64,000 nt of DNA from Flavobacteriales bacterium. GTDB lineage: Bacteria > Bacteroidota > Bacteroidia > Flavobacteriales_D > Sanyastnellaceae. Position numbers and translations under genes: made by a program. The notes under the pieces were generated by a model that made no database searches, was not told the origin of the DNA, and saw only the letters and a program-made list of their open reading frames with translations. The stretch's first letter is position 1, and the number at the start of each line of letters is the position of its first letter. The stretch spans positions 1 to 64,000 of the forward strand of contig JAIBBG010000005.1 of NCBI GenBank assembly GCA_019694805.1. The letters are read 5' to 3'. Positions 26,364 to 41,797 of this stretch are shown in pieces.

Positions 26364-26491
26364 GTGTTTTGGTAGTGTACCGAATACACATTAGAGTTAG
26401 TTGAGTTGAGTCTTCACGACTCAAAACAATTACGATAGTTTTTAGTTTTTCAGTTTAAGCCATCAAGCCCCGCTATCGAGTGGGGCTTTTT
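26364..26491 (+). ncRNA. Candidate small RNA with three hairpins
   Basis: About 128 bases from the predicted start to the T-tract, between glcD-like and a T9SS-substrate gene. Hairpins: GTGTA/TACAC (26375-26389), TTGAGTC/GACTCAA (26406-26424, 5-base loop) and the terminator at 26466-26491. I see no tRNA, tmRNA, SRP or 6S hallmarks. It could also be an attenuating leader of the following gene, but that gene has its own TACATTTG box. Boundaries are inferred. Confidence 0.45.
26466..26491 (+). terminator. Terminator AGCCCCGCT/AGTGGGGCT
   Basis: A 9-bp stem with one G-U pair and an ATCG loop, followed by five T. It ends the candidate sRNA 106 bases before the next ATG. Confidence 0.85.
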
Positions 26492-26572
26492 GGTTCAATA
26501 CATTTGAAAGCTTTATCAGAGCTGGCTTTCAGACCACATGAAAAAAATCATTCCAAGCTCCATGCAAACGGA

Positions 26573-26580
26573 TACATTTG
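26573..26580 (+). promoter_or_regulatory. -7 box TACATTTG for the SprB-repeat protein
   Basis: A perfect TAnnTTTG 17 bases before the ATG at 26597. It supports this ATG over the longer frame starting at 26480, which would run through the promoter and terminator. Confidence 0.65.
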
Positions 26581-26596
26581 TAACAAACCAAAAATC

Positions 26597-28465
26597 ATGA
26601 GGAATTCTACACTCGTTCTTATCTTCTCTTTATTCCTTTTAAAAGTAAATGCCCAATGCAATACTGGCGAAATCGCGGTAACCATGCAGATCACCGTGGA
26701 TGCGTGGGGGCAGGAAACCTATTGGGAAATCGTCCCCAGCGGCAATGGATGTGGTAACGGTACCATAGCCTCTGGAAGTAATTTCAATGTTGGATGCGCC
26801 GGCGTTGATCCTGCCGATGGCAATGATGGATATCCCGACAATACTCTTGTCTCAGAAGGTCCCTTCTGTCTCACCGAAGGAGTGATGTACGATCTGGTCT
26901 TCGTTGACAGCTATGGTGATGGTGGTCTCACATTCGAACTATATGAAGATGGTAGCTATGCTCATGGATATCAGGGAACAGGCTCGGGCAATATTTGGAC
27001 ATTTGAAGCCGGCAACTCTGGCTTACCAGACAATGACTCTCCTTGCGGAGCATATGAAATCATTCCGAATGGACCCGCAGTTGCTATGGACAACACCGAG
27101 GCGATTGCACAATTCATAGAGCCTCATCCGAATGGCGGCGGTTGCGGAACTCCAGGCTTTTGGTGTCAAAGCGATTTCGCCATCACCAAAACAGTTTGGG
27201 CTTACTTCATCGCACAGGCGAATACCACCTATGAAATTACCACTTGCAACGAAAGTGAAGGATCGTTTGACACCCAACTTGCACTTTACCATGCAGCCGA
27301 TTGCAGTGACTTTAGTTCATTCTCTCTCATCAGTTCCAATGACGACATGAGCGGCGGATGCGCAGTTGCCAACGGCTATTCATCGCGCATGTTTGCTTCA
27401 TGTCTCCTGGAAGGTGATGTGTACTACATTCAATTGGATGGATGGGCTGACGCAAGCGGTGTATCAAACCTTACCATAACGACAACAACAGCTGCTCCAA
27501 CCATGAACGTGCAAGTGGGTAATGTGAATTGTCCATTAAATAAAGGTGAAGAAGCCAACGGTTCCTTAACACCTTATCTCAACAACAGTGGTGTCAACTT
27601 TACAACCTCCTGGACTGGTCCTGCGGGTTTTACCAGCACAGAAAATTATCCAACGGGATTACAGCCAGGTACATATAATCTCAGTCTGACAGATGCTTGC
27701 GGTTCCAGCTATTCCGGGTCATATACCATTACACAGCCGTTGCCATGGAATATCATCGTTTCAAGCACAGGTCCTCAATGTGAAACAAGTTCTGATGGTG
27801 TGATCGACCTTTCTGTGAGTGGAGCCACTGCACCTTATACATACAGCTGGGCGGCATTAGGCGGTTTTACAGCTGCCACAGAAGACCTCACCGATCTTGA
27901 AGTAGCTGAATACCAGTTGATCATTACTGATGATAATGGTTGCGAATGGCAACAGAACTACAATTTGACAGCAGCCAATAGTTTCAGTTTTGACCTTGGA
28001 GCAGATACCATTCTTTGTCAAGAAGATGATATCGTCATTTCCGGTCCTGCCGGACAGACTTACTCATGGCAGGATGGTAGCAACAACCAGTTTTTCTTGA
28101 TCAGTGGAGAAGATTGGCCTGTCGGTGCGAATAGTGTTATTCTTACTGCAACTACTGAACTCGGTTGCAGCTATTCAGATGCCTTCATTTTTACTGTAGA
28201 AGATTGTATTCTCGTGGATGAAAATGAAAATGAAATGGTTCAAATCTGGCCAAACCCTGTGAACGATGTCATCAACATAGCATTGAACAAAGTACAAAAT
28301 CAAATCAATTTGAGACTGTATGATGTCTCAGGAAAAATGGTCATAGACAAGGTGTTCAATAACACAAATCAGATCAATACTTCATTGAATATTCCTGCTG
28401 GACTTTACACACTGAATATGCAAAGTGATCGAATGAACTGGTCGAAAAAAATACTCGTTCAGTAA
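26597..28465 (+). CDS. T9SS-secreted SprB-repeat protein with type A sorting domain
   Basis: A 622-residue surface protein. The signal peptide MRNSTLVLIFSLFLLKVNAQ precedes a domain with repeated Y(G/T)DGGLTFE-like glycine/aspartate segments (about 60-130). Next comes a PPC-like domain with two cysteine-rich parts (about 155-300), then two SprB-type repeats around CETSSDGVIDLSVSGATAPYT. The last 80 residues hold VQIWPNPVNDVINIAL, LYDVSGKMV and PAGLYTLNM, a T9SS type A sorting signal. This addresses the protein to the outer surface through the type IX system. An adhesin or matrix role is likely, inferred from SprB repeats. Confidence 0.88.
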   Translation: MRNSTLVLIFSLFLLKVNAQCNTGEIAVTMQITVDAWGQETYWEIVPSGNGCGNGTIASGSNFNVGCAGVDPADGNDGYPDNTLVSEGPFCLTEGVMYDLVFVDSYGDGGLTFELYEDGSYAHGYQGTGSGNIWTFEAGNSGLPDNDSPCGAYEIIPNGPAVAMDNTEAIAQFIEPHPNGGGCGTPGFWCQSDFAITKTVWAYFIAQANTTYEITTCNESEGSFDTQLALYHAADCSDFSSFSLISSNDDMSGGCAVANGYSSRMFASCLLEGDVYYIQLDGWADASGVSNLTITTTTAAPTMNVQVGNVNCPLNKGEEANGSLTPYLNNSGVNFTTSWTGPAGFTSTENYPTGLQPGTYNLSLTDACGSSYSGSYTITQPLPWNIIVSSTGPQCETSSDGVIDLSVSGATAPYTYSWAALGGFTAATEDLTDLEVAEYQLIITDDNGCEWQQNYNLTAANSFSFDLGADTILCQEDDIVISGPAGQTYSWQDGSNNQFFLISGEDWPVGANSVILTATTELGCSYSDAFIFTVEDCILVDENENEMVQIWPNPVNDVINIALNKVQNQINLRLYDVSGKMVIDKVFNNTNQINTSLNIPAGLYTLNMQSDRMNWSKKILVQ

Positions 28466-29172: not shown

Positions 29173-32100
29173 CTATCGAACAAGAATGACATGTCCGCGG
29201 TAAACGCGTTCTTTATCTGAATTCTTCAATTGCACCACAATGAGCCAGTTGTATGCGTCATCTTTGGCATAGTACTCACCATTGCGAACATCACCGGTCC
29301 ACGCCATTTCCGGATCATCAGTCTCGAAAATCACTGTTCCCCATCTATCGAAAATCTGGAACTTGTAAGTTTCAATGAACGGGATACCAGTAAGCTTAGG
29401 TAAGAATACTTCATTGAGATCATCATTGTCTGGAGTGAATGCATTCGGTACAAACACATTGAAAATGTCGTTGACAACCACAATCTTACTGATGGTATCC
29501 GTGCAACCATAATTGGTAGCAACCTCAAGTGTTACCTCCCAAATACCAGCATCTGGGAAAGTGTGTCTAACGTTTTGTTGCGATACAGAGGTACCATCAC
29601 CAAAATCCCAATCCCAATGCGCAGCATATTGGCTATTATCAAAGAATGTCACCTCAGGAGAATAGATATCCGTCTCTTCCGGGTCAAAATAAAAATCTGC
29701 AACCGGTAAACGATAGGCGTGAATCATGTCATTCATGGTAACAGTATCCACACAACCTTCATCGGTTATTGCAATGAGCGAAACATCATACGCCCCGGCT
29801 ACTGAATACACATATTGCGGATTGGAAGCCGAACTTTGACTGCCATCACCAAACAACCACGTGTATGATGTCGCTCCAGTACTTTCATTGGAAAAAGCCA
29901 CAGTCAACGGCACACATCCTGCATCAGGTGCAACACTGAATGCCACTTCCGGCAATGGGTGTATGGTATATGTAGCTGTACTTGATGATGTACAGTTGAA
30001 TGAATTCGTAGACGTTAGATCGATTTGATGTGTTCCCACTTCATCGAAAATGAAAGAAGTATTCAGCAAGCCCGAATAATATTCTCCATCCAGATACCAC
30101 TCATAACCATTGGCAAATTGCGACATATTCGTAGCCGAAACGGTTTGCGGAAAATAGCATGATTCTTCAGCTGAAAGCGTGAAAGCACAAATCGGTTGAG
30201 GCGCAACGATGACATTCATTTCAAAAGTATCTGCGCACAACTGCATATCCTGTACAATCAAAGAAACGGTATAAATATCAGCGTCGCTGCTTTCGTTCGT
30301 GTATTCATTGCAAGCATTGGTTGTATTTGCAGTATTGCCATCACCAAAATCCCATGAATAAAAATTACCCGCGGTTGTTGTATTCGAGAAACAAACATTA
30401 AAAGGACTGCAGCCTATTTGATCCGGTATCGTAAACGATGCTTGCGGGCCATCGAATACAACGAAAGGATGAGATATGGTTGTAGTGCAGAGATTATCAC
30501 TAATGGCAGTCAATGTCACGGTATAATTTCCGCCATTCTCATATTCATGTATCGGTTGAGACAAATAGGAAGTATTGCCATCACCGAAATCCCATTCATA
30601 ATCAACTGCTCCATCAAGATCAGCAATAAATTCAACACTATTGTGCGAGCAGATGTTCGGAACATTCGGTTCAAAATCAATGTCAGGTGATGGGAAAACA
30701 TGAATCGTCACCTGTGCGGTATCATAACTACAGCCATTGTCAGCATATTGATAAATGGTGTAGGTACCTTCACTATAGGTATATGACGGATTGTCCTGAC
30801 CGGTATTTACAGGTCCAAGATCATAAGAGATCTGATTGGCACCATCGCTGAAGTCCGTGAATTGAACTGTAAGTGGCTCACATCCTTCCGTTACAGAAGT
30901 ATTGAAAAAGGCTGTCACAGTATTCGGGAATACTGTAATGGTATGACTTACGGTATCTGCTCCGCATTCATTAGAAACATAAAGCCAAATGGTATAATCA
31001 ACATTCACTGTATCTGCATAATAGACATGTTGACCTGGCTCCATGCTTGTGCCTCCAGTGCCATCACCAAAATCCCATTCATAAGTGTCCGGGAGTCCGG
31101 TGGAGGTATTGTTGAAATGAACTTCAAATGGAGAACAATCAGCATTTAAATCAGTACCAAAACCAGCGATAGGTTGAGGCATTACGGTAATGACATCATC
31201 ATCAGTAACTACGCCGCAGAAGTTCGTTACCGTAAGACTCACAGGATATTCTACAACATCATTTCCTTGTTGATAGGTCACAGGCAGAGGAATACTGTCT
31301 GTCGAAGTGGAAGTACTCAGATCCCAATTGAAAGTGGTATACAATCCAACAGATTGATTGTCGAAAGTAACCTGCAGCGGAGCACACCCCATAGCAGGAT
31401 CAATCAGGAGATCAGCTGTTGGAGGATTGATGATTTCATTTGAATTGGAAGCTGTATCAGCGCAACCGAAATTGTTGCTAGCAATCATGGTAATGTCAAA
31501 TACTCCCTGAGTCGGGGCAGGATAAGTATAAGAAGGCTCAAAACCATTGAGTTCATCCCCATTGCCAAATGCCCATAGATATTGTGTTGCACCGGTGCTG
31601 AGGTTATCAATAGCAACGGGAGAATTGGTACATCCTAATACAGGTACATTGAAATTCGCAACAGGAACCGGAGAGACATTTACCGTCGTGGTGGCTGTAT
31701 CCGAGCATTGGGTAGTTGGATCGGTGTACCAATAAATAAGATCATAAGTATTTGCACCAATGGAAGGATCGAATGTTCCAGTGGAAGCATCGATGATACC
31801 TGTTCCTTCCCAGGTACCTCCGGTGACTGGAACAAATCCTGTCAAATCAAAAATAGCCGCATTACCACATACCACTGCGCCCGGACCCGCTTGAACATTT
31901 GGCAATGGCAATACTTCCAATTCCATTTGATCCGAAGAATAGCATGTTCCTGTCCCAGTCTCAATCGTCAAATCCCAGGTACCTACACCGGCAAGTTCCG
32001 GATTGATAATACCATTCGTTGCATCGATGACACCCGGGCCAGACCATTCCAAATTGGTAACCGGATTAAATCCAGTAAGTGTATAAGCACCTTCATTGAG

Positions 32101-35100
32101 ACAAAGTGTCAAATCAGGACCAGCATTGGCGATCACAGGTGCAATGACAGTAACCTGGATAGAATCAATGCCCGTGCAATTGTTACCACCTGCTGTAAAT
32201 TCATAATATAACCAATAAGTTCCGATACCAGGACTCATGAACACTCCAGCTGGATCAACAATGCCGGTACCAAACCATTCACCTGTACCAGTTGTGTTAG
32301 CAGAGAATCCGGTGAGAGTTTCTTCGATAGCCTGATCGCAAACTGTTATGTTGTTACCCGCTTCCACGATGGGTAATCCATTGACAAAAACAGTTATCGC
32401 ATCCGTGTCGGTACAGTTATTATCATCGGTCAAAGTTCCTGTGAAAGTTGTGGTATTGACAGGAAATGCCAAAGTATTCAATGCTTGGTCATCAGAAAGC
32501 CATCCGGAAAAATTCCATGAAATATCGTATGGGGCAGTACCACCCGAAGCGACTGCTTGAATGGACGCTGTGTCATTGACGCAAATGGTAATATCCGTTC
32601 CAGCATCTAATGTTGGCAGTGGATTCACTGTAACTTCCACATCGTCTGTCGTCAAACATGTACCTGATCCCAATGTATAGGTGATGGTATAACTTCCAAC
32701 TGTAGATGGCGTGAAGACACCAGAGGTCGTTACTGGAGTACCCACTGGAGCGCTCCATGCACCGCCAGGTGTAGTTGTTGGCAAAGTCATGTTGCCTGAG
32801 TTCAAACATAGTTCTACGTCCGGTCCAGCATCTGCAGTGGTTGCATTCGTTATGGTGATGGTCATATCATCACATTTTTCACAACCTGTTGACGGATTCG
32901 TGTAGCAATAAGTCATTACAAATGATCCAGTACCTGTTGGTGTGAAAGACCCACCCGAAGTTATACCCGTTCCAGTCCATGTACCACCCGCCGGAGATCC
33001 ATTGATTTGTGTGGCAATAGGTTGATTGCACAAAGTCATATCCGGACCAGCATTGGTTGGAGGAAGTGGATTTACGAAAATGGTGATTTGATCGGAATCA
33101 GTGCAAGATTCAGCATCCACAAGGGTCAAATTGTACGTTGTGGTAGAATTCAATGGTCCTGTTGAAGGATCGCAACTCAATGCAGGACTTGATGGACCTC
33201 CTGTCCAGGTGCAAAATGCTGCGGGACCATTCGGACATGATGTACACACACCTGATAAATCAACGCTTTCACCAGCACAAATCGTCACATCAGGACCAGC
33301 ATCTGCAACCGGCAAAGGCAAAACAGTAACAATAGTTGTATCTGTAGTCGCACACGAACCTGTACCTTGTGTCACGATGACATCATCTACCATTGGAACA
33401 GTTGGTGTATAAACACCACTCGCACTTACGTTTGGAGATCCTGTCCAGCTACCAGCTGGTAATTGAATGGATCCAACACTCAAACATATCGTTGTATCCG
33501 GGCCTGCGTTCGCCGGAACCGGATCTGTCACGCATATCTGAATATTATCACAAGCATTACATCCTGTAGTGGCATAAGTAAAGCAATAGGTAAGGGTCAC
33601 ACAACCGACTCCTGCAGGAGTAAACACGCCTGATCCAGTGACGTTTGGACCACTCCATGTTCCAGAACCACCAGGACCGGTTCCTCCTGTTGTGGGCGAA
33701 AAGCCGGTAAGTTGCGTAGCAACAGGTTGATTACATAAATTGATGTCAGGTCCAGCATAGGTTGGAGGAAGTGGATTCACCGTAACTGGAACAGTTCCTG
33801 TGCCAATACATCCATGACTGTCAGTAACCTGTACACTGTATGATGTGCTGCTAGGCGAATTACAAACCGGATTTGAAATGGCATTGTTCGTCAAGTACTG
33901 ATTGGGAGACCAGAGATAAGTATTGTATGTACCTGAACCACCGGTGACATTCAAACTGAGTTGCTCATTTTGGCCAGCGCACATTTCAAATGTTCCTCCC
34001 GGATTTACAGTAGGAAGTGGATCGATGTTGAGCGTTATGGTGCCGGTATCAGAACAAGAACCGGATGTTCCGGTAACTGTATAAGTTATTGTTCCTGTGG
34101 GGTTTGATTGAACTGTGTTTCCAGTTCCTGAATAATTGGACAAATAAGTTGATGGAGACCAGGTATAACTACCAGCTCCGGTAGCTGTGAGAATCGTAGC
34201 CTGACCATTACAAATGGTATTATCAACATCTGAAGCAGTGATTTGAACGTCTGGTGCAGGTAAGACATTCATAACTCCTGTATCTGAACCAGTTCCGCAA
34301 GAATTTTGCGCTGTGAGTGTCACGTTGTAATTCCCAGGATTCGCATAGGTAACATTGGGTGCGGCAAGGGTAGATGCAGATGCCGGTGTACCACTTGGAA
34401 ATGACCAGGTATATTGTGTGACTGGCAAATTACAACCATCAACAACTCCAGTAGGTGTCCCTCCTGATGCCCCAACACAAACACTCGATGGTGTGGTAAC
34501 ATCCACAACAGGCACAGTATTCACTGTGATCACTTCGGTATCTTCAAATGTTCCGCAAGCATTGGTCATTTCAAGGTGTATGGTATAAATACCAACACTC
34601 GTTAAACTAAATTGTGGTTCCAATGAAGATGCCGAAGTACCACCGGTGTAACTATAGGTACCATCATCCGGATCACAAGGTAAGTCGCTATAAGTAAGAT
34701 ACCAGTTTGTACTTGTACTGCAAGAATTTGGACTCAGACTGGTATTATCTGTGGTAACGGCCATCGGAAAACAACCATCGTTGTCATTGACTGTGAATAT
34801 TGGTGTTGGTGCCGGCTCAATGCAAACCACATGAGTATCAGTAGAATTACCGCAAGCATTTGTAGCGGTCATGGTTACCGTATATGTCCCTGGTGTGGTG
34901 TACACATGCGTCTGATTGCTCAAGGTCGCAACTGTTACCGAAGGTGAGCCATCACCAAAATTCCAGGTATAGGTACCGGTCTGGGCACAACTGCTATTGT
35001 AACCTGCTGTTGAATTGTTGATGAAAGTAACGGTACTATTTACACAAGCAGGCACAGGAGTAGGAGTGAATGACGCAACTGGCGCGCTATAAACTTTCAC

Positions 35101-36237
35101 CGGAAAAATCGTGGCCACAGATTGATCACAGTTGTTGGTTGCTGTGATCGAAAAAGTATATCCCGAAGGGTTTGTAGCACAGGAAGACCCAGAATAAGTA
35201 TGACAAATTTCGGTTGGTGGCGGGTGGTTCAGTAATTGAGTTGGCGAGCCATCACCAAAATCAACCAAATAAGTAGTGGATTCATGGTTACCGGCATAGT
35301 TGTTCAGTGGAAAACAAATGTTTAATGGACCGCAACCCTGAGTGCCTCCCGGGTTTGCCGCTCCGATGGATGGGTTGGTAATATTTGAAACATAATAGGT
35401 TTCAGATACCGAACATCCATTGGGACCAGTCACCGTATATACCAAGTCAAATACTTCATTGCCAGTATAAACGTGATTGACACCTTGAGGTGAAGAGCTA
35501 CCCGTCCAATCTGAACTGCCATCACCCCAATCAATGGTGTAATTGGTATTACCGGTCGTCGTACCGGCATCAAAAACCGACAAACTAAAAGTTGGATCTC
35601 CAGAACAATTGGTAAAAGAGGAAATCGGATCGGTGAGTTCTACATCAGGAATTCGTTTCACCAAAATACCTGAAACATAAGTGTCCTCACAGCCATTAGC
35701 GGCCGTTACAGTAAGCGTTACGGTAAAATTCTGAGTACCTGTGCCAACTGCACTGCTAAAAGTGTGGGTCGGATTCTGCTGTGTGGAAATGGGTGATCCG
35801 TCGCCGAAATCCCATTCATAAGTACAACCCGTGCATCCTGTTGTGGTATTGGTAAATGCAATGGGTGTGTCAGCGCATGGTGTATTATTCGGGGTAAAAT
35901 TAAAATTCGCATTGGGTGAAGGCAGAACTGTGACCTGAACCTGATCGGTTTGGCCATTACACCCATTGCCACTCAAGGTAACTGTATATGTCGTGGTGGT
36001 TGAGGGTGTGGCAATAGGATTCGCGATGGTTGGATCGTTCAATCCTGTTGTCGGTGTCCAACTGTAGGAAACTCCCGGAGGTCCAGGATTCGGATCAACG
36101 GCGGTTGGATTGCCTCCAATCTGAACTCCCACGCCAGCGCAGGTTTGAACATTGGGGCCAGCATCAGCATCACACTGAGCGTGGATATGCATAGAAAACC
36201 CTACACACAGGAGTGTCAGGGCAACGATTCGTCGCAA
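29173..36237 (-). CDS. Giant PKD-repeat adhesin with T9SS type B (gliding-associated) C-terminal domain
   Basis: A protein of about 2354 residues. No ATG precedes the signal peptide. The likely start is the TTG at 36237 giving LRRIVALTLLCVGFSMHIHA; TTG at 36258 is an alternative. Blocks of PKD domains marked by WDFGDG/WNFGDG occur in the first 600 and last 750 residues. The middle is a run of about ten cysteine-containing units with AGPDxTxC and CNQPxATQ. The last 90 residues carry VFVPNAFTPDNDDLNEVF and IFDRWGTVIFET, the gliding motility-associated type B domain. It should be exported by T9SS and probably forms long surface fibres. No PorP/SprF partner lies next to it. Confidence 0.88.
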   Translation of the reverse strand: MRRIVALTLLCVGFSMHIHAQCDADAGPNVQTCAGVGVQIGGNPTAVDPNPGPPGVSYSWTPTTGLNDPTIANPIATPSTTTTYTVTLSGNGCNGQTDQVQVTVLPSPNANFNFTPNNTPCADTPIAFTNTTTGCTGCTYEWDFGDGSPISTQQNPTHTFSSAVGTGTQNFTVTLTVTAANGCEDTYVSGILVKRIPDVELTDPISSFTNCSGDPTFSLSVFDAGTTTGNTNYTIDWGDGSSDWTGSSSPQGVNHVYTGNEVFDLVYTVTGPNGCSVSETYYVSNITNPSIGAANPGGTQGCGPLNICFPLNNYAGNHESTTYLVDFGDGSPTQLLNHPPPTEICHTYSGSSCATNPSGYTFSITATNNCDQSVATIFPVKVYSAPVASFTPTPVPACVNSTVTFINNSTAGYNSSCAQTGTYTWNFGDGSPSVTVATLSNQTHVYTTPGTYTVTMTATNACGNSTDTHVVCIEPAPTPIFTVNDNDGCFPMAVTTDNTSLSPNSCSTSTNWYLTYSDLPCDPDDGTYSYTGGTSASSLEPQFSLTSVGIYTIHLEMTNACGTFEDTEVITVNTVPVVDVTTPSSVCVGASGGTPTGVVDGCNLPVTQYTWSFPSGTPASASTLAAPNVTYANPGNYNVTLTAQNSCGTGSDTGVMNVLPAPDVQITASDVDNTICNGQATILTATGAGSYTWSPSTYLSNYSGTGNTVQSNPTGTITYTVTGTSGSCSDTGTITLNIDPLPTVNPGGTFEMCAGQNEQLSLNVTGGSGTYNTYLWSPNQYLTNNAISNPVCNSPSSTSYSVQVTDSHGCIGTGTVPVTVNPLPPTYAGPDINLCNQPVATQLTGFSPTTGGTGPGGSGTWSGPNVTGSGVFTPAGVGCVTLTYCFTYATTGCNACDNIQICVTDPVPANAGPDTTICLSVGSIQLPAGSWTGSPNVSASGVYTPTVPMVDDVIVTQGTGSCATTDTTIVTVLPLPVADAGPDVTICAGESVDLSGVCTSCPNGPAAFCTWTGGPSSPALSCDPSTGPLNSTTTYNLTLVDAESCTDSDQITIFVNPLPPTNAGPDMTLCNQPIATQINGSPAGGTWTGTGITSGGSFTPTGTGSFVMTYCYTNPSTGCEKCDDMTITITNATTADAGPDVELCLNSGNMTLPTTTPGGAWSAPVGTPVTTSGVFTPSTVGSYTITYTLGSGTCLTTDDVEVTVNPLPTLDAGTDITICVNDTASIQAVASGGTAPYDISWNFSGWLSDDQALNTLAFPVNTTTFTGTLTDDNNCTDTDAITVFVNGLPIVEAGNNITVCDQAIEETLTGFSANTTGTGEWFGTGIVDPAGVFMSPGIGTYWLYYEFTAGGNNCTGIDSIQVTVIAPVIANAGPDLTLCLNEGAYTLTGFNPVTNLEWSGPGVIDATNGIINPELAGVGTWDLTIETGTGTCYSSDQMELEVLPLPNVQAGPGAVVCGNAAIFDLTGFVPVTGGTWEGTGIIDASTGTFDPSIGANTYDLIYWYTDPTTQCSDTATTTVNVSPVPVANFNVPVLGCTNSPVAIDNLSTGATQYLWAFGNGDELNGFEPSYTYPAPTQGVFDITMIASNNFGCADTASNSNEIINPPTADLLIDPAMGCAPLQVTFDNQSVGLYTTFNWDLSTSTSTDSIPLPVTYQQGNDVVEYPVSLTVTNFCGVVTDDDVITVMPQPIAGFGTDLNADCSPFEVHFNNTSTGLPDTYEWDFGDGTGGTSMEPGQHVYYADTVNVDYTIWLYVSNECGADTVSHTITVFPNTVTAFFNTSVTEGCEPLTVQFTDFSDGANQISYDLGPVNTGQDNPSYTYSEGTYTIYQYADNGCSYDTAQVTIHVFPSPDIDFEPNVPNICSHNSVEFIADLDGAVDYEWDFGDGNTSYLSQPIHEYENGGNYTVTLTAISDNLCTTTISHPFVVFDGPQASFTIPDQIGCSPFNVCFSNTTTAGNFYSWDFGDGNTANTTNACNEYTNESSDADIYTVSLIVQDMQLCADTFEMNVIVAPQPICAFTLSAEESCYFPQTVSATNMSQFANGYEWYLDGEYYSGLLNTSFIFDEVGTHQIDLTSTNSFNCTSSSTATYTIHPLPEVAFSVAPDAGCVPLTVAFSNESTGATSYTWLFGDGSQSSASNPQYVYSVAGAYDVSLIAITDEGCVDTVTMNDMIHAYRLPVADFYFDPEETDIYSPEVTFFDNSQYAAHWDWDFGDGTSVSQQNVRHTFPDAGIWEVTLEVATNYGCTDTISKIVVVNDIFNVFVPNAFTPDNDDLNEVFLPKLTGIPFIETYKFQIFDRWGTVIFETDDPEMAWTGDVRNGEYYAKDDAYNWLIVVQLKNSDKERVYRGHVILVR

Positions 36238-36446
36238 TTGGTTAGTAGTTGGCAACAAAGTAGAAGTTCAGTTTGTAAGCTTGTACAAATTAAGTAAACC
36301 TGCCGGTGTTTACAGTGGTCAAAGATAAGTCTTAAAAAGCGATAAAAAGGTTGCATGAGATCTGATAGATGTTAAAATAATTTGGTGGATTGAAGGAATT
36401 CGAAAATTGAGATTTTTGATTATCATTGTTTCCAAATCAACCCTTC

Positions 36447-38819
36447 ATGAAAACCAAATTTTTACGTTCTACAGCATTCGGATTATTATTTATCCTTCAG
36501 TTATTTGTTTTGACCACTGATACCAAGGCGCAATGTGCCGATGGTATGTCACAACTTGAATTGGAATTTACCTGCAACAGTTCAGATTGTGCCTACAGCT
36601 ATTATGTCTATTCTGTCGATTTCTCGGAAATGTACGGTAGCAACAGCTTTATGAATAACCCTACAGCTACTGACCAAATTTGCATTCCCAGCGACCAGTG
36701 TTTGTTGATCTATCTATACTACGACGGATTCGATTCTGCACCAACCATCACTTACAGCGCTAGTATTGATGGTGTGCCGGCTTCAAGCGGAGAAATGGTA
36801 GGTTGGTATACGCAGTTTTATGCAAATTGTCCAGCTGGTTCTATGTGCGGAGCTCCTATTACCCTGGAAACTGAAGGTACTTATACTGCTGATCTTGATG
36901 ATACTTGGTATGTTTTTGCGCCTTCAATTACCGGATTGTATCACATTTCAACTTGCAACGACAACACTTGCGACACCAAAATCTGGGTGTATGAAAATTG
37001 TCCGTTTGGAACAGCTCAGGAAGGTCCTCCTGGCACATATGCTTACAACGATAATGGCAATTGTGGTACCCAAGCGGATACTGATGTCATTTTTGAAGGC
37101 GGAAACACATATTATATCAGAATTGGTGATAACATGAACGCATGTGTTGTTCCGGTGACATTCACGTTGAGTTATGTGGGTCAAATACCGGGTTGTATGG
37201 ATCCTAATGCCTGCAACTACAATCCGCTGGCTCAAGTAGAGGCTCCATGTTTGTATTACCCTGATCCCAATTGCACTGGTCCAGATCTCATGATGAACGT
37301 GGATGTGCTATTATCTTCTATGACCATGATGAATGTCCAGGCCATGAACTGTGACGTCGTTGAAGGCATGGTGACTGGTGATGGCATGAGAGATGTTATC
37401 ACTTTTAGTGTAAGAATTGACAATATCGGCACTGCCGATTATTATATTGGAGATCCAACCAATAACCCTGAAATGTTCGAATTGGTCAATTGTCATGGCC
37501 ATACCCACTACGCTGGATATGGAGATTATCGGTTGATGGACATGCAAGGTAATATCATTCCAGCCGGTCACAAAAATGGATTCTGTGTCATGGACCTATG
37601 TGGATTCGGTCAATACAATTGTGGGCAAATGGGAATTTCAGCCGGTTGTTATGATGAATATGGCGCAGGAACAAGCGGTCAATGGTTCGACATTACCGAT
37701 GTTCCAGATGGCACTTATCGCGGACTCGTAACCGTGAATCCTCTGGAACTGCCTGACGCTCTCGGCCGACATGAAATGGATTATGAAAACAACACTTATG
37801 TGTTCTGCCTCGAGATTTACACCAACAATCAAGGATCACGTGCTTTCCAACTTTCAGAAAATTGCCCGCCATTTGTTGATTGCGCTGGAGTTGAAGGAGG
37901 AACTGCGACTCCAGATTGTGAAGGGGTATGCAATGGCCCATCTGTATGGGGAGATATCGTTAGCGACAACGACCTCAATCAAACAGATCTCGATCAGTAC
38001 ATCGATATTCTTTCTCAGGAAGAAATTATCGTCACAACGTGTAATGACTTGAGCGCAAATGGTTCATTGACAATTTATGACCTTTCATTGGCCAATAGCT
38101 GTATCGGTGCAAGTGAAACAAGCGCTTCATCTCAATGCTATTTTCCTCACAATGTCATCAGCACAATGGGGTCTGCAGGTCTCGCCATCAGCGATGTCAA
38201 CTTTGAAGAAGGTTATATCGATGTCGAAATCAAATCACAAATGCACGCCGTAGTTGCTTACCAATTCAATATTGGTGGCGTTATCATCAGCAGTGTAGAA
38301 AGCTTAGCCGATGGAACTTCTTTTCCATGCTCAACAGGATTCAACCCATTCACCAATGATGTTTTTGGACTTGGTGAATACGAAACAGAAATTTCGCCGA
38401 ATATCAATCCCCAGGCATTGATCAGAATTTATTATAGTCAAATTACCAGCAATACTATTTGTATCAATGGTATCATAGACATCGTGAATGATCAAAGATC
38501 AAGATTATCAAATTACGTATATGGTAATTGTTTTGATGCCACAGCTTTCAGCACAAATGAAATATATCATGCAGGTAACATCCTGGTTCGACCAAACCCT
38601 GCTCAAGATCAAATCACATTTAGCCTCACTCAATTTGTAGAAACACCGCGATCACTCATCATCAGGGATCACATTGGAAAGATCGTTCAGGTGATTTCTT
38701 TGCAAAACAACAATCATGTAATAACTCATGACATATCATCGCTACCTTCTGGTTTGTACACCATTGAGAGCGAAGGAAATGATTCAATCAAAGTGGTTAC
38801 TCGATTCACCAAGCTTTAA
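36447..38819 (+). CDS. T9SS-secreted lysyl oxidase-domain protein
   Basis: A 790-residue secreted protein starting MKTKFLRSTAFG. N-terminal cysteine-rich region (to about 275) ends in GCMDPNACNYNP. Residues about 279-457 match a lysyl oxidase: copper-site HGHTH (H350, H352, H354), GHKNGFC with K376, and GCYDEYGAG with Y405. K376 and Y405 correspond by alignment to the LTQ-forming Lys and Tyr (human K320 and Y355, from memory). QWFDITDVPDGTY follows as in animal LOX. A dockerin-like part, a cohesin-like part and a type A sorting domain (VRPNPAQDQITF) end it. It likely oxidises amines on surface or extracellular protein, which is inference. Confidence 0.85.
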   Translation: MKTKFLRSTAFGLLFILQLFVLTTDTKAQCADGMSQLELEFTCNSSDCAYSYYVYSVDFSEMYGSNSFMNNPTATDQICIPSDQCLLIYLYYDGFDSAPTITYSASIDGVPASSGEMVGWYTQFYANCPAGSMCGAPITLETEGTYTADLDDTWYVFAPSITGLYHISTCNDNTCDTKIWVYENCPFGTAQEGPPGTYAYNDNGNCGTQADTDVIFEGGNTYYIRIGDNMNACVVPVTFTLSYVGQIPGCMDPNACNYNPLAQVEAPCLYYPDPNCTGPDLMMNVDVLLSSMTMMNVQAMNCDVVEGMVTGDGMRDVITFSVRIDNIGTADYYIGDPTNNPEMFELVNCHGHTHYAGYGDYRLMDMQGNIIPAGHKNGFCVMDLCGFGQYNCGQMGISAGCYDEYGAGTSGQWFDITDVPDGTYRGLVTVNPLELPDALGRHEMDYENNTYVFCLEIYTNNQGSRAFQLSENCPPFVDCAGVEGGTATPDCEGVCNGPSVWGDIVSDNDLNQTDLDQYIDILSQEEIIVTTCNDLSANGSLTIYDLSLANSCIGASETSASSQCYFPHNVISTMGSAGLAISDVNFEEGYIDVEIKSQMHAVVAYQFNIGGVIISSVESLADGTSFPCSTGFNPFTNDVFGLGEYETEISPNINPQALIRIYYSQITSNTICINGIIDIVNDQRSRLSNYVYGNCFDATAFSTNEIYHAGNILVRPNPAQDQITFSLTQFVETPRSLIIRDHIGKIVQVISLQNNNHVITHDISSLPSGLYTIESEGNDSIKVVTRFTKL

Positions 38820-38840: not shown

Positions 38841-38870
38841 AAACCCCGGTTTTCCGGGGTTTTGTTTTTT
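38841..38870 (+). terminator. Terminator after the lysyl oxidase gene
   Basis: AAACCCCGG, TTTT, CCGGGGTTT, a 9-bp perfect stem, then TTTGTTTTTT. It starts 22 bases after the stop. Confidence 0.9.
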
Positions 38871-41062: not shown

Positions 41063-41608
41063 CTATTTGCCTTGAGCCATATAATACGGCTGAGCCAATT
41101 CATAGAATTTCTCCTTGGCCTTTTCTGTATACTCGATGTCCCATACCATTTCTCCATCTTGATAAGTACACTTAGCAAAAGGTTCCTTACAAAGACTTAA
41201 GAGACTATCGTCGTCCACTTTCTTAAAAAGTGACACATCGGTGAGACACTTCATGGCAGCATCGGTACCGTGGAATTTTACATCGGAACAATCAATTTCG
41301 AAGGTCTTACAGAAGTATCCATCTTTTTCAAATGTGACGCTGTACTTGGAACCGGCATCGAGTAATAGAGCGTAGAAACCAGTCTCTCGTGCACTGACCG
41401 TATTGATCAGGTCACCGCCTTTGTAAACAAAGACCTTAACATTTTTCAGTTTTTCCGGCGCTTTTTGGCGTTTACTCTTTTTTACATCGCCTGTGGGATC
41501 CACAAATACACCTTCTTCAATGTAGCCATAGAATAAAACCTGTGGGGTTTGTGCTGAAAGACATAAACCAATAAATAAAAATAGGGTGAACGTAATTACC
41601 TTTTTCAT
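41063..41608 (-). CDS. Exported protein with carboxypeptidase-regulatory-like beta domain
   Basis: A 181-residue protein. The start is MKKVITFTLFLF (41608), a signal peptide cleaved after CLSAQ; the frame extends eleven codons further up without support. A beta-sandwich of the carboxypeptidase-regulatory type is suggested by KLKNVKVFVYKGGDLINTVS and GFYALLLDAGSKYSVTFEKDGY. Two or more cysteines in the second half (CSD, MKCLTD, LCKE, KCTY) may pair. Function unknown; a separate strong terminator follows. Confidence 0.7.
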   Translation of the reverse strand: MKKVITFTLFLFIGLCLSAQTPQVLFYGYIEEGVFVDPTGDVKKSKRQKAPEKLKNVKVFVYKGGDLINTVSARETGFYALLLDAGSKYSVTFEKDGYFCKTFEIDCSDVKFHGTDAAMKCLTDVSLFKKVDDDSLLSLCKEPFAKCTYQDGEMVWDIEYTEKAKEKFYELAQPYYMAQGK

Positions 41609-41797
41609 GGAGGTATAGTTTGTTGCAGGTAGTTTTAACACGTAAACTCATAAAAAGGTTACACCCAGATTAATGATTTATTAATGGAGTAGTTAAAATC
41701 AACAAGTTATTCACAATCCAGAAGAAAGCGTGAAGACGCTGAAAAACAATAAAATAGATTAGATTTTAAGAAATGAAAGGAGGAATTCCCAGAACCA

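Follow-up and report, generated by a model that had tools for sequence, protein, structure and literature searches.

A multidomain protein of the lysyl oxidase family with a type IX secretion sorting signal in uncultured Bacteroidota

A gene of a Flavobacteriales bacterium, found in the window (the whole 64,000-nucleotide stretch of contig JAIBBG010000005.1 that was analysed), encodes a large modular protein of the lysyl oxidase (LOX) family. Sequence comparison supports this membership and predicts intact copper-ligand histidines and an intact lysine tyrosylquinone (LTQ) residue pair. The protein is probably a copper amine oxidase that is exported through Sec and then through the type IX secretion system (T9SS) to the cell surface or the medium. 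The proposed mechanism has four steps. (i) The LOX domain would bind copper through H350, H352 and H354. (ii) K376 and Y405 would self-process into LTQ. (iii) The mature enzyme would convert primary amines to aldehydes with the release of NH3 and H2O2. (iv) Attachment of the enzyme to a surface, or its inclusion in a complex, most likely falls to the PPC-like, dockerin-like and cohesin-like modules. The most probable substrates are lysyl groups or other primary amines from outside the cell (of proteins or polymers, or small amines); the products of the adjacent genes are less probable. The multidomain T9SS architecture is common within one group of uncultured Bacteroidota and is no one-off.

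The open reading frame begins with the ATG at 36447, ends with the stop codon at 38817-38819 and specifies 790 aa. Its features are collected in table 1. Pfam detects PF01186 at residues 313-461 with an E value of 4.9e-23 (score 82.3 bits, cut-off 20.4), and human LOXL2 (5ZE3) is the sole PDB sequence match (phmmer, E 1.9e-15). This profile search had been proposed as a check in the initial annotation, which recognized a LOX core from its motifs, and the match is significant. The motifs are HGHTH (350-354), GHK (374-376), CYDEYG (401-406) and QWFDITDVPDGTY (412-424); in the translation, every residue that had been named is found at its number. In the alignment with LOXL2, the three histidines H350, H352 and H354 fall on H626, H628 and H630. 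K376 corresponds to K653 and Y405 to Y689, so the pairing with the animal LTQ residues that the initial annotation proposed is borne out. H375 of GHK is the counterpart of LOXL2 H652, and F379 that of F656, the residue that stacks on Y689 (PMC9659206). The Gemmatirosa row of this alignment is in the wrong reading frame and was disregarded. No substitution at any of the five catalytic residues is seen in 39 LOX domains of related genomes or in the 78 domains of a named-contig set; the same residues served to predict competence in a 2015 survey of the family (PMC4448552).

Structure prediction agrees with the sequence match. The core was modelled poorly in the full-length AlphaFold2 (AF2) prediction, with pLDDT below 50 in places, and the LOX domain was therefore refolded alone. 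With 78 sequences, this model reached a pLDDT of 89 and a pTM of 0.85. Foldseek placed 5ze3_A at the top (E 2.5e-14), and VIA-align aligned 191 residues with LOXL2 542-763 at a Z of 21.1 to 5ze3_B (rmsd 2.9), the runner-up scoring 8.0. The overlay on human LOXL2, also suggested at the outset, thus favours the assignment. It supports the sequence match without being fully independent of it, because AF2 was probably trained on 5ZE3. A wide spacing of K376 and Y405 in an apo model, named at the outset as grounds for rejection, would not count against a LOX, since Lys653 and Tyr689 lie 16.6 A apart in the crystal structure of the LOXL2 precursor (PMC9659206).

Table 1. Features of the LOX gene and its product, in window coordinates.
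Feature	Position	Strand	Basis
Whole gene, multidomain lysyl oxidase family protein, probably T9SS-exported	36447..38819	+	ORF, translation, Pfam; 790 aa
Putative signal peptide, residues 1-28	36447..36530	+	Sequence; cleavage site by eye
N-terminal beta-sandwich, residues 34-126	36546..36824	+	AF2 pLDDT about 80
PPC-like / ColG collagen-binding-domain-like fold, residues 129-243	36831..37175	+	VIA-align, fold resemblance only
Short Cys module GCMDPNACNYNPLA...C, residues 249-276	37191..37274	+	Cys invariant in two alignments
Lysyl oxidase catalytic domain, residues 277-470	37275..37856	+	PF01186; AF2; 5ze3_B match
M308, site of LOXL2 Cys579	37368..37370	+	LOXL2 alignment
Predicted copper-ligand motif H350-G-H352-T-H354	37494..37508	+	LOXL2 alignment; invariance, 78 sequences
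K376, predicted LTQ lysine (= LOXL2 K653)	37572..37574	+	LOXL2 alignment; invariance, 78 sequences
Y405, predicted LTQ tyrosine (= LOXL2 Y689)	37659..37661	+	LOXL2 alignment; invariance, 78 sequences
G411, site of LOXL2 Cys695	37677..37679	+	LOXL2 alignment
Dockerin-like region, residues 503-556	37953..38114	+	Sequence; Pfam Dockerin_1 in relatives only
Cohesin-like beta-sandwich, residues 571-704	38157..38558	+	VIA-align to type I cohesins
T9SS type A C-terminal sorting domain, residues 707-790	38565..38816	+	PF18962; NucA fold match
Intrinsic-terminator-like hairpin and T tract, closes transcription unit	38841..38862	+	Fold z -5.2

The protein has a putative export leader at its N terminus and a sorting signal at its C terminus. 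The hydrophobic leader (residues 1-28) is likely, as judged by eye, to be cut between ...DTKA and Q29C. This putative cut would expose a Gln, as in the Q-rule of Bacteroidetes, by which Gln is exposed after signal-peptide cleavage (PMC5837995). At the C terminus, PF18962 (Por_Secre_tail) matches residues 716-780 with an E value of 8.1e-9 (Pfam), and residues 707-790 have a fold like that of known T9SS sorting domains, among them NucA's (8glk_D; 27% identity, Z 8.2) and PorU's. The Pfam match and the NucA-like fold together confirm the type A sorting signal that had been read by eye from the sequence. The NCBIfam model TIGR04183 gives 22.8 bits in this protein, slightly below its cut-off of 23, and matches 17/17 clade members at E 0.01 or better. 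T9SS tails occur in all 17 full-length members of the clade and in 27/36 wider, diverse relatives. The secretion machinery was searched for by SprA: the same genome has a full-length SprA (open frame of 2541 aa) that scores above the cut-off, together with at least 150 T9SS-type tails.

The remaining modules are resemblances in predicted fold or sequence, and all are putative binders. The accessory folds were called on the full-length AF2 model, which has a mean pLDDT of 68; in the Pfam scan of the 790-aa protein, nothing appeared beyond Lysyl_oxidase and the T9SS sorting tail. Residues 129-243 superpose on the collagen-binding domain of ColG (2o8o_A) with a Z of 11.7 and an rmsd of 2.5 over 100 residues (VIA-align), at 12% identity; a PPC domain was without a Pfam match in this protein. 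The initial annotation had not named this part. It had named a cohesin-like part, which stands at the level of predicted fold: VIA-align superposes residues 571-704 on type I cohesins with a Z of about 11 (11.2 to 6kgf_C), and no cohesin sequence match was found in this protein. Its dockerin-like part fares less well. A few relatives do match Dockerin_1 (2/17 clade members at E < 0.1, and 8/36 wider relatives), and the stretch is more typical in relatives (DLNGDG...D), whereas in the window copy the Ca loops are degenerate and Pfam finds no Dockerin_1. The N-terminal beta-sandwich is missing from the approximately 682-aa members of the clade (alignment).

LOX is frequent in the immediate lineage. 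A match was found in 31/36 other sampled genomes of the same family and in 7/23 others of the order. An even sample of the phylum yielded a match in 4/392 genomes, two of them in the same family. A pattern scan of species-representative genomes recovered 437 stretches encoding a LOX relative; the best 80 of the 437 all carry labels of Bacteroidota groups, except one labelled 'bacterium'. The pattern scan of viral contigs recovered no LOX relative. Clade members come from environmental metagenome-assembled genomes. The recurring architecture, of about 780-800 aa, consists of a leader, a variable N-terminus, LOX, dockerin-like and cohesin-like parts and a T9SS tail. A recent foreign origin of the gene was considered on grounds of composition and rejected, its GC and GC3 resembling those of its neighbours. 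In 2/7 same-genus genomes, gene order matches the window as far as the SprB-repeat gene at 26480, past which no synteny was found.

The genome encodes a second LOX protein of 2237 aa (G000:C60, L032:1735-8445). The two share a LOX domain and a T9SS tail; the paralogue differs in adding PKD and 17 PF11617 repeats, and in belonging to another LOX clade that is shared across the family. These repeats are matched with an E value of 1.3e-170 by PF11617 'Cu-binding_MopE', a putative metal-binding motif. Two LOX genes in one genome were found in 0/7 sampled same-genus genomes, several of which are incomplete. Among other relatives, L096, L100, L110 and similar stretches encode LOX proteins of about 1160 aa ending in ...NDRDPILVNIGG...QLP. 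A MAM domain is present in L100, and no T9SS tail was seen there.

Animals use a related lysyl oxidase for the stiffening of collagen. The catalytic fold, the HxHxH copper site, the LTQ Lys/Tyr pair and, near the Lys, the equivalent of F656 (F379 in the window domain) are common to human LOXL2 (5ZE3), animal LOX and the window domain, which is 29% identical to LOXL2 over 191 aligned residues. Animal LOXL2, LOXL3 and LOXL4 carry N-terminal SRCR domains, whereas the Pfam scan found none in the window protein. Unlike LOXL2, the window protein has a T9SS tail and PPC-, dockerin- and cohesin-like modules, and lacks the Cys579-Cys695 pair. HTU-LOX of the archaeon Haloterrigena turkmenica has the same catalytic residues and is a prokaryotic precedent with tested activity (PMC6452851). 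When expressed in E. coli, this enzyme requires Cu, is inhibited by BAPN and acts on lysine polymers as well as on numerous small amines (PMC6452851); these properties support the step from fold to activity that is taken here. HTU-LOX is called cryptic in its host. Its N-terminus is hydrophobic, and the available text of that report mentions no T9SS tail or extra modules, in which it differs from the window protein (PMC6452851).

The initial annotation had LOX domains known in a few bacteria, which is too narrow: the 2015 survey by Grau-Bove et al. found LOX in five bacterial clades, Bacteroidetes included, and in archaea (PMC4448552). Those bacterial proteins share their Pfam family and, in part, their phylum with the window protein. 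They are mostly LOX-only, with or without a signal peptide, and a multidomain or T9SS-bearing Bacteroidetes form is not described in the available text of the survey (PMC4448552). A literature search, with subscription papers mostly outside its reach, returned no relevant link of LOX with type IX secretion, Flavobacteriales or dockerin. LOX of Bacteroidetes has thus been known since 2015; no description of a multidomain form exported by T9SS turned up in the literature searched.

The window copy departs from its relatives at two positions of the catalytic domain. In LOXL2, Cys579 and Cys695 form a disulfide (PMC9180022). Both positions are Cys in 77/77 other named-contig sequences and are Met and Gly here; in the set from related genomes, too, the window copy alone is without either Cys (alignment). 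Since the two sites are the ends of a known disulfide, the losses fit the loss of one bond. Two separate sequencing errors in the draft assembly are an unlikely cause. In the tree, the protein lies in a fully supported 23-row clade and has the longest terminal branch there (0.75). Summed branch lengths from clade base to tip are about 0.93, compared with 0.64-0.71 for the L076-L094 group, and its root-to-tip path is the longest in the clade, about 1.4 times the next. The root across phyla was left unplaced, the human branch being too long (6.4). The window copy is faster-evolving, yet not extreme. Paired Cys loss and a long path would both be expected of a decaying or repurposed second copy, one that folds and may bind metal yet has little or no activity in this organism, and the other LOX of the genome could make it dispensable. 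This is nevertheless unlikely, because the reading frame, the catalytic residues, the T9SS tail and the terminator are all intact, the base composition is in line with that of the neighbouring genes, and disulfide number is highly variable among LOX proteins (PMC6452851). Disulfide rearrangement is itself debated for LOXL2 (PMC9694262, PMC9180022).

The surroundings of the gene bear on its substrates. The PKD gene (29173-36258) is divergent from the LOX gene, and a strong terminator follows LOX, which makes LOX a probable single-gene transcription unit. The PKD protein carries a CHU_C T9SS signal and has 9 Lys in 2361 aa (0.4% lysine, 0.4% arginine). The SprB-repeat T9SS protein (26480-28465) has 2.0% Lys; other proteins of the window mostly have 4-8%. 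Across 40 stretches of the same genome chosen for their T9SS tails, mature cargo contains 1.0% Lys at the median, on which a mispicked non-cargo ORF (L187) has no material effect. Several cargo proteins (L168-L207) lack lysine altogether in their mature portion. Lysine depletion of the cargo as self-protection from LOX was rejected, because family members without LOX are equally Lys-poor (median 0.95% vs 0.98%, p 0.87, small samples). The PKD gene was also rejected as a conserved partner: at the relatives' LOX loci examined, no PKD homologue passed the coverage filter. The SprB-repeat family is found 5-20 kb from a LOX gene in 10/36 genomes, more often than random placement would give (about one or fewer, by a rough estimate), and this proximity may be inherited gene order in related genomes. 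In another LOX clade (L037:5600-11082, L147:2657-10616), an S46 peptidase flanks LOX, and a T9SS protein with CotH kinase / lamin-tail domains (LTD) follows closely, the ORFs overlapping. Neither the peptidase nor the CotH/LTD protein was found beside LOX in the window. A minus-strand frame at 41063-41641 encodes a secreted-looking, Lys-rich protein (192 aa, 12.5% Lys) with no Pfam match.

These observations weigh against a matrix crosslinker acting on the cell's own surface proteins, in which lysine aldehydes formed on, for example, the neighbouring PKD and SprB-repeat proteins would join them into a surface matrix. Surface export and the cohesin- and dockerin-like modules suit a scaffold, and the recurrent proximity of SprB-repeat genes points the same way. 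The flanking proteins and the cargo in general are nevertheless poor in lysine, likewise in LOX-free family members; LOX is probably a solitary transcription unit; and the PKD gene is absent from the relatives' LOX loci that were examined. On this evidence, crosslinking of own surface proteins is distinctly unlikely, and the earlier proposal that the flanking PKD and SprB-repeat proteins are the targets is not upheld. Being Lys-poor, the organism's own cargo is improbable as the main target of lysyl crosslinking. The same scarcity fits a nutrient or chemical-warfare oxidase, which would oxidise small amines or amine polymers to gain NH3 and release H2O2 and aldehydes. HTU-LOX, broad on small amines, offers a parallel, its authors proposing that it scavenges nitrogen or acts on amine antibiotics (PMC6452851). 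This alternative is tenable, if tentative: no amine-metabolism partner was recognized adjoining the LOX gene, and the modular architecture suggests a larger binding target. It shares its enzymatic step with the preferred reading, an exported amine oxidase of extracellular lysyl and other primary amines, and differs in substrate class alone. The ColG-like fold could also be taken to anchor the enzyme to host or detrital protein of an animal or algal matrix, such as collagen. PPC folds occur widely, and most of them are not collagen binders. With sequence identity to ColG so low and clade members drawn from environmental genomes, such a role is very improbable indeed.

For the lineage, the near-ubiquity of LOX in the family, the secretion tag and the recurring multidomain architecture point to a LOX role of likely importance to the cell. 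A family so rich in LOX makes the role of bacterial lysyl oxidase testable. Because the copy with the paired Cys loss is otherwise intact, it offers a natural test of whether LTQ can form without the Cys579-Cys695 bond. On a further reading, held to be very unlikely, this lineage, almost all of whose members carry LOX, would have a bacterial version of animal extracellular-matrix maturation: T9SS would deliver the copper/LTQ enzyme to the cell surface, cohesin-dockerin-like contacts would join it into a scaffold, and its aldehydes would form covalent links within a biofilm or gliding matrix.
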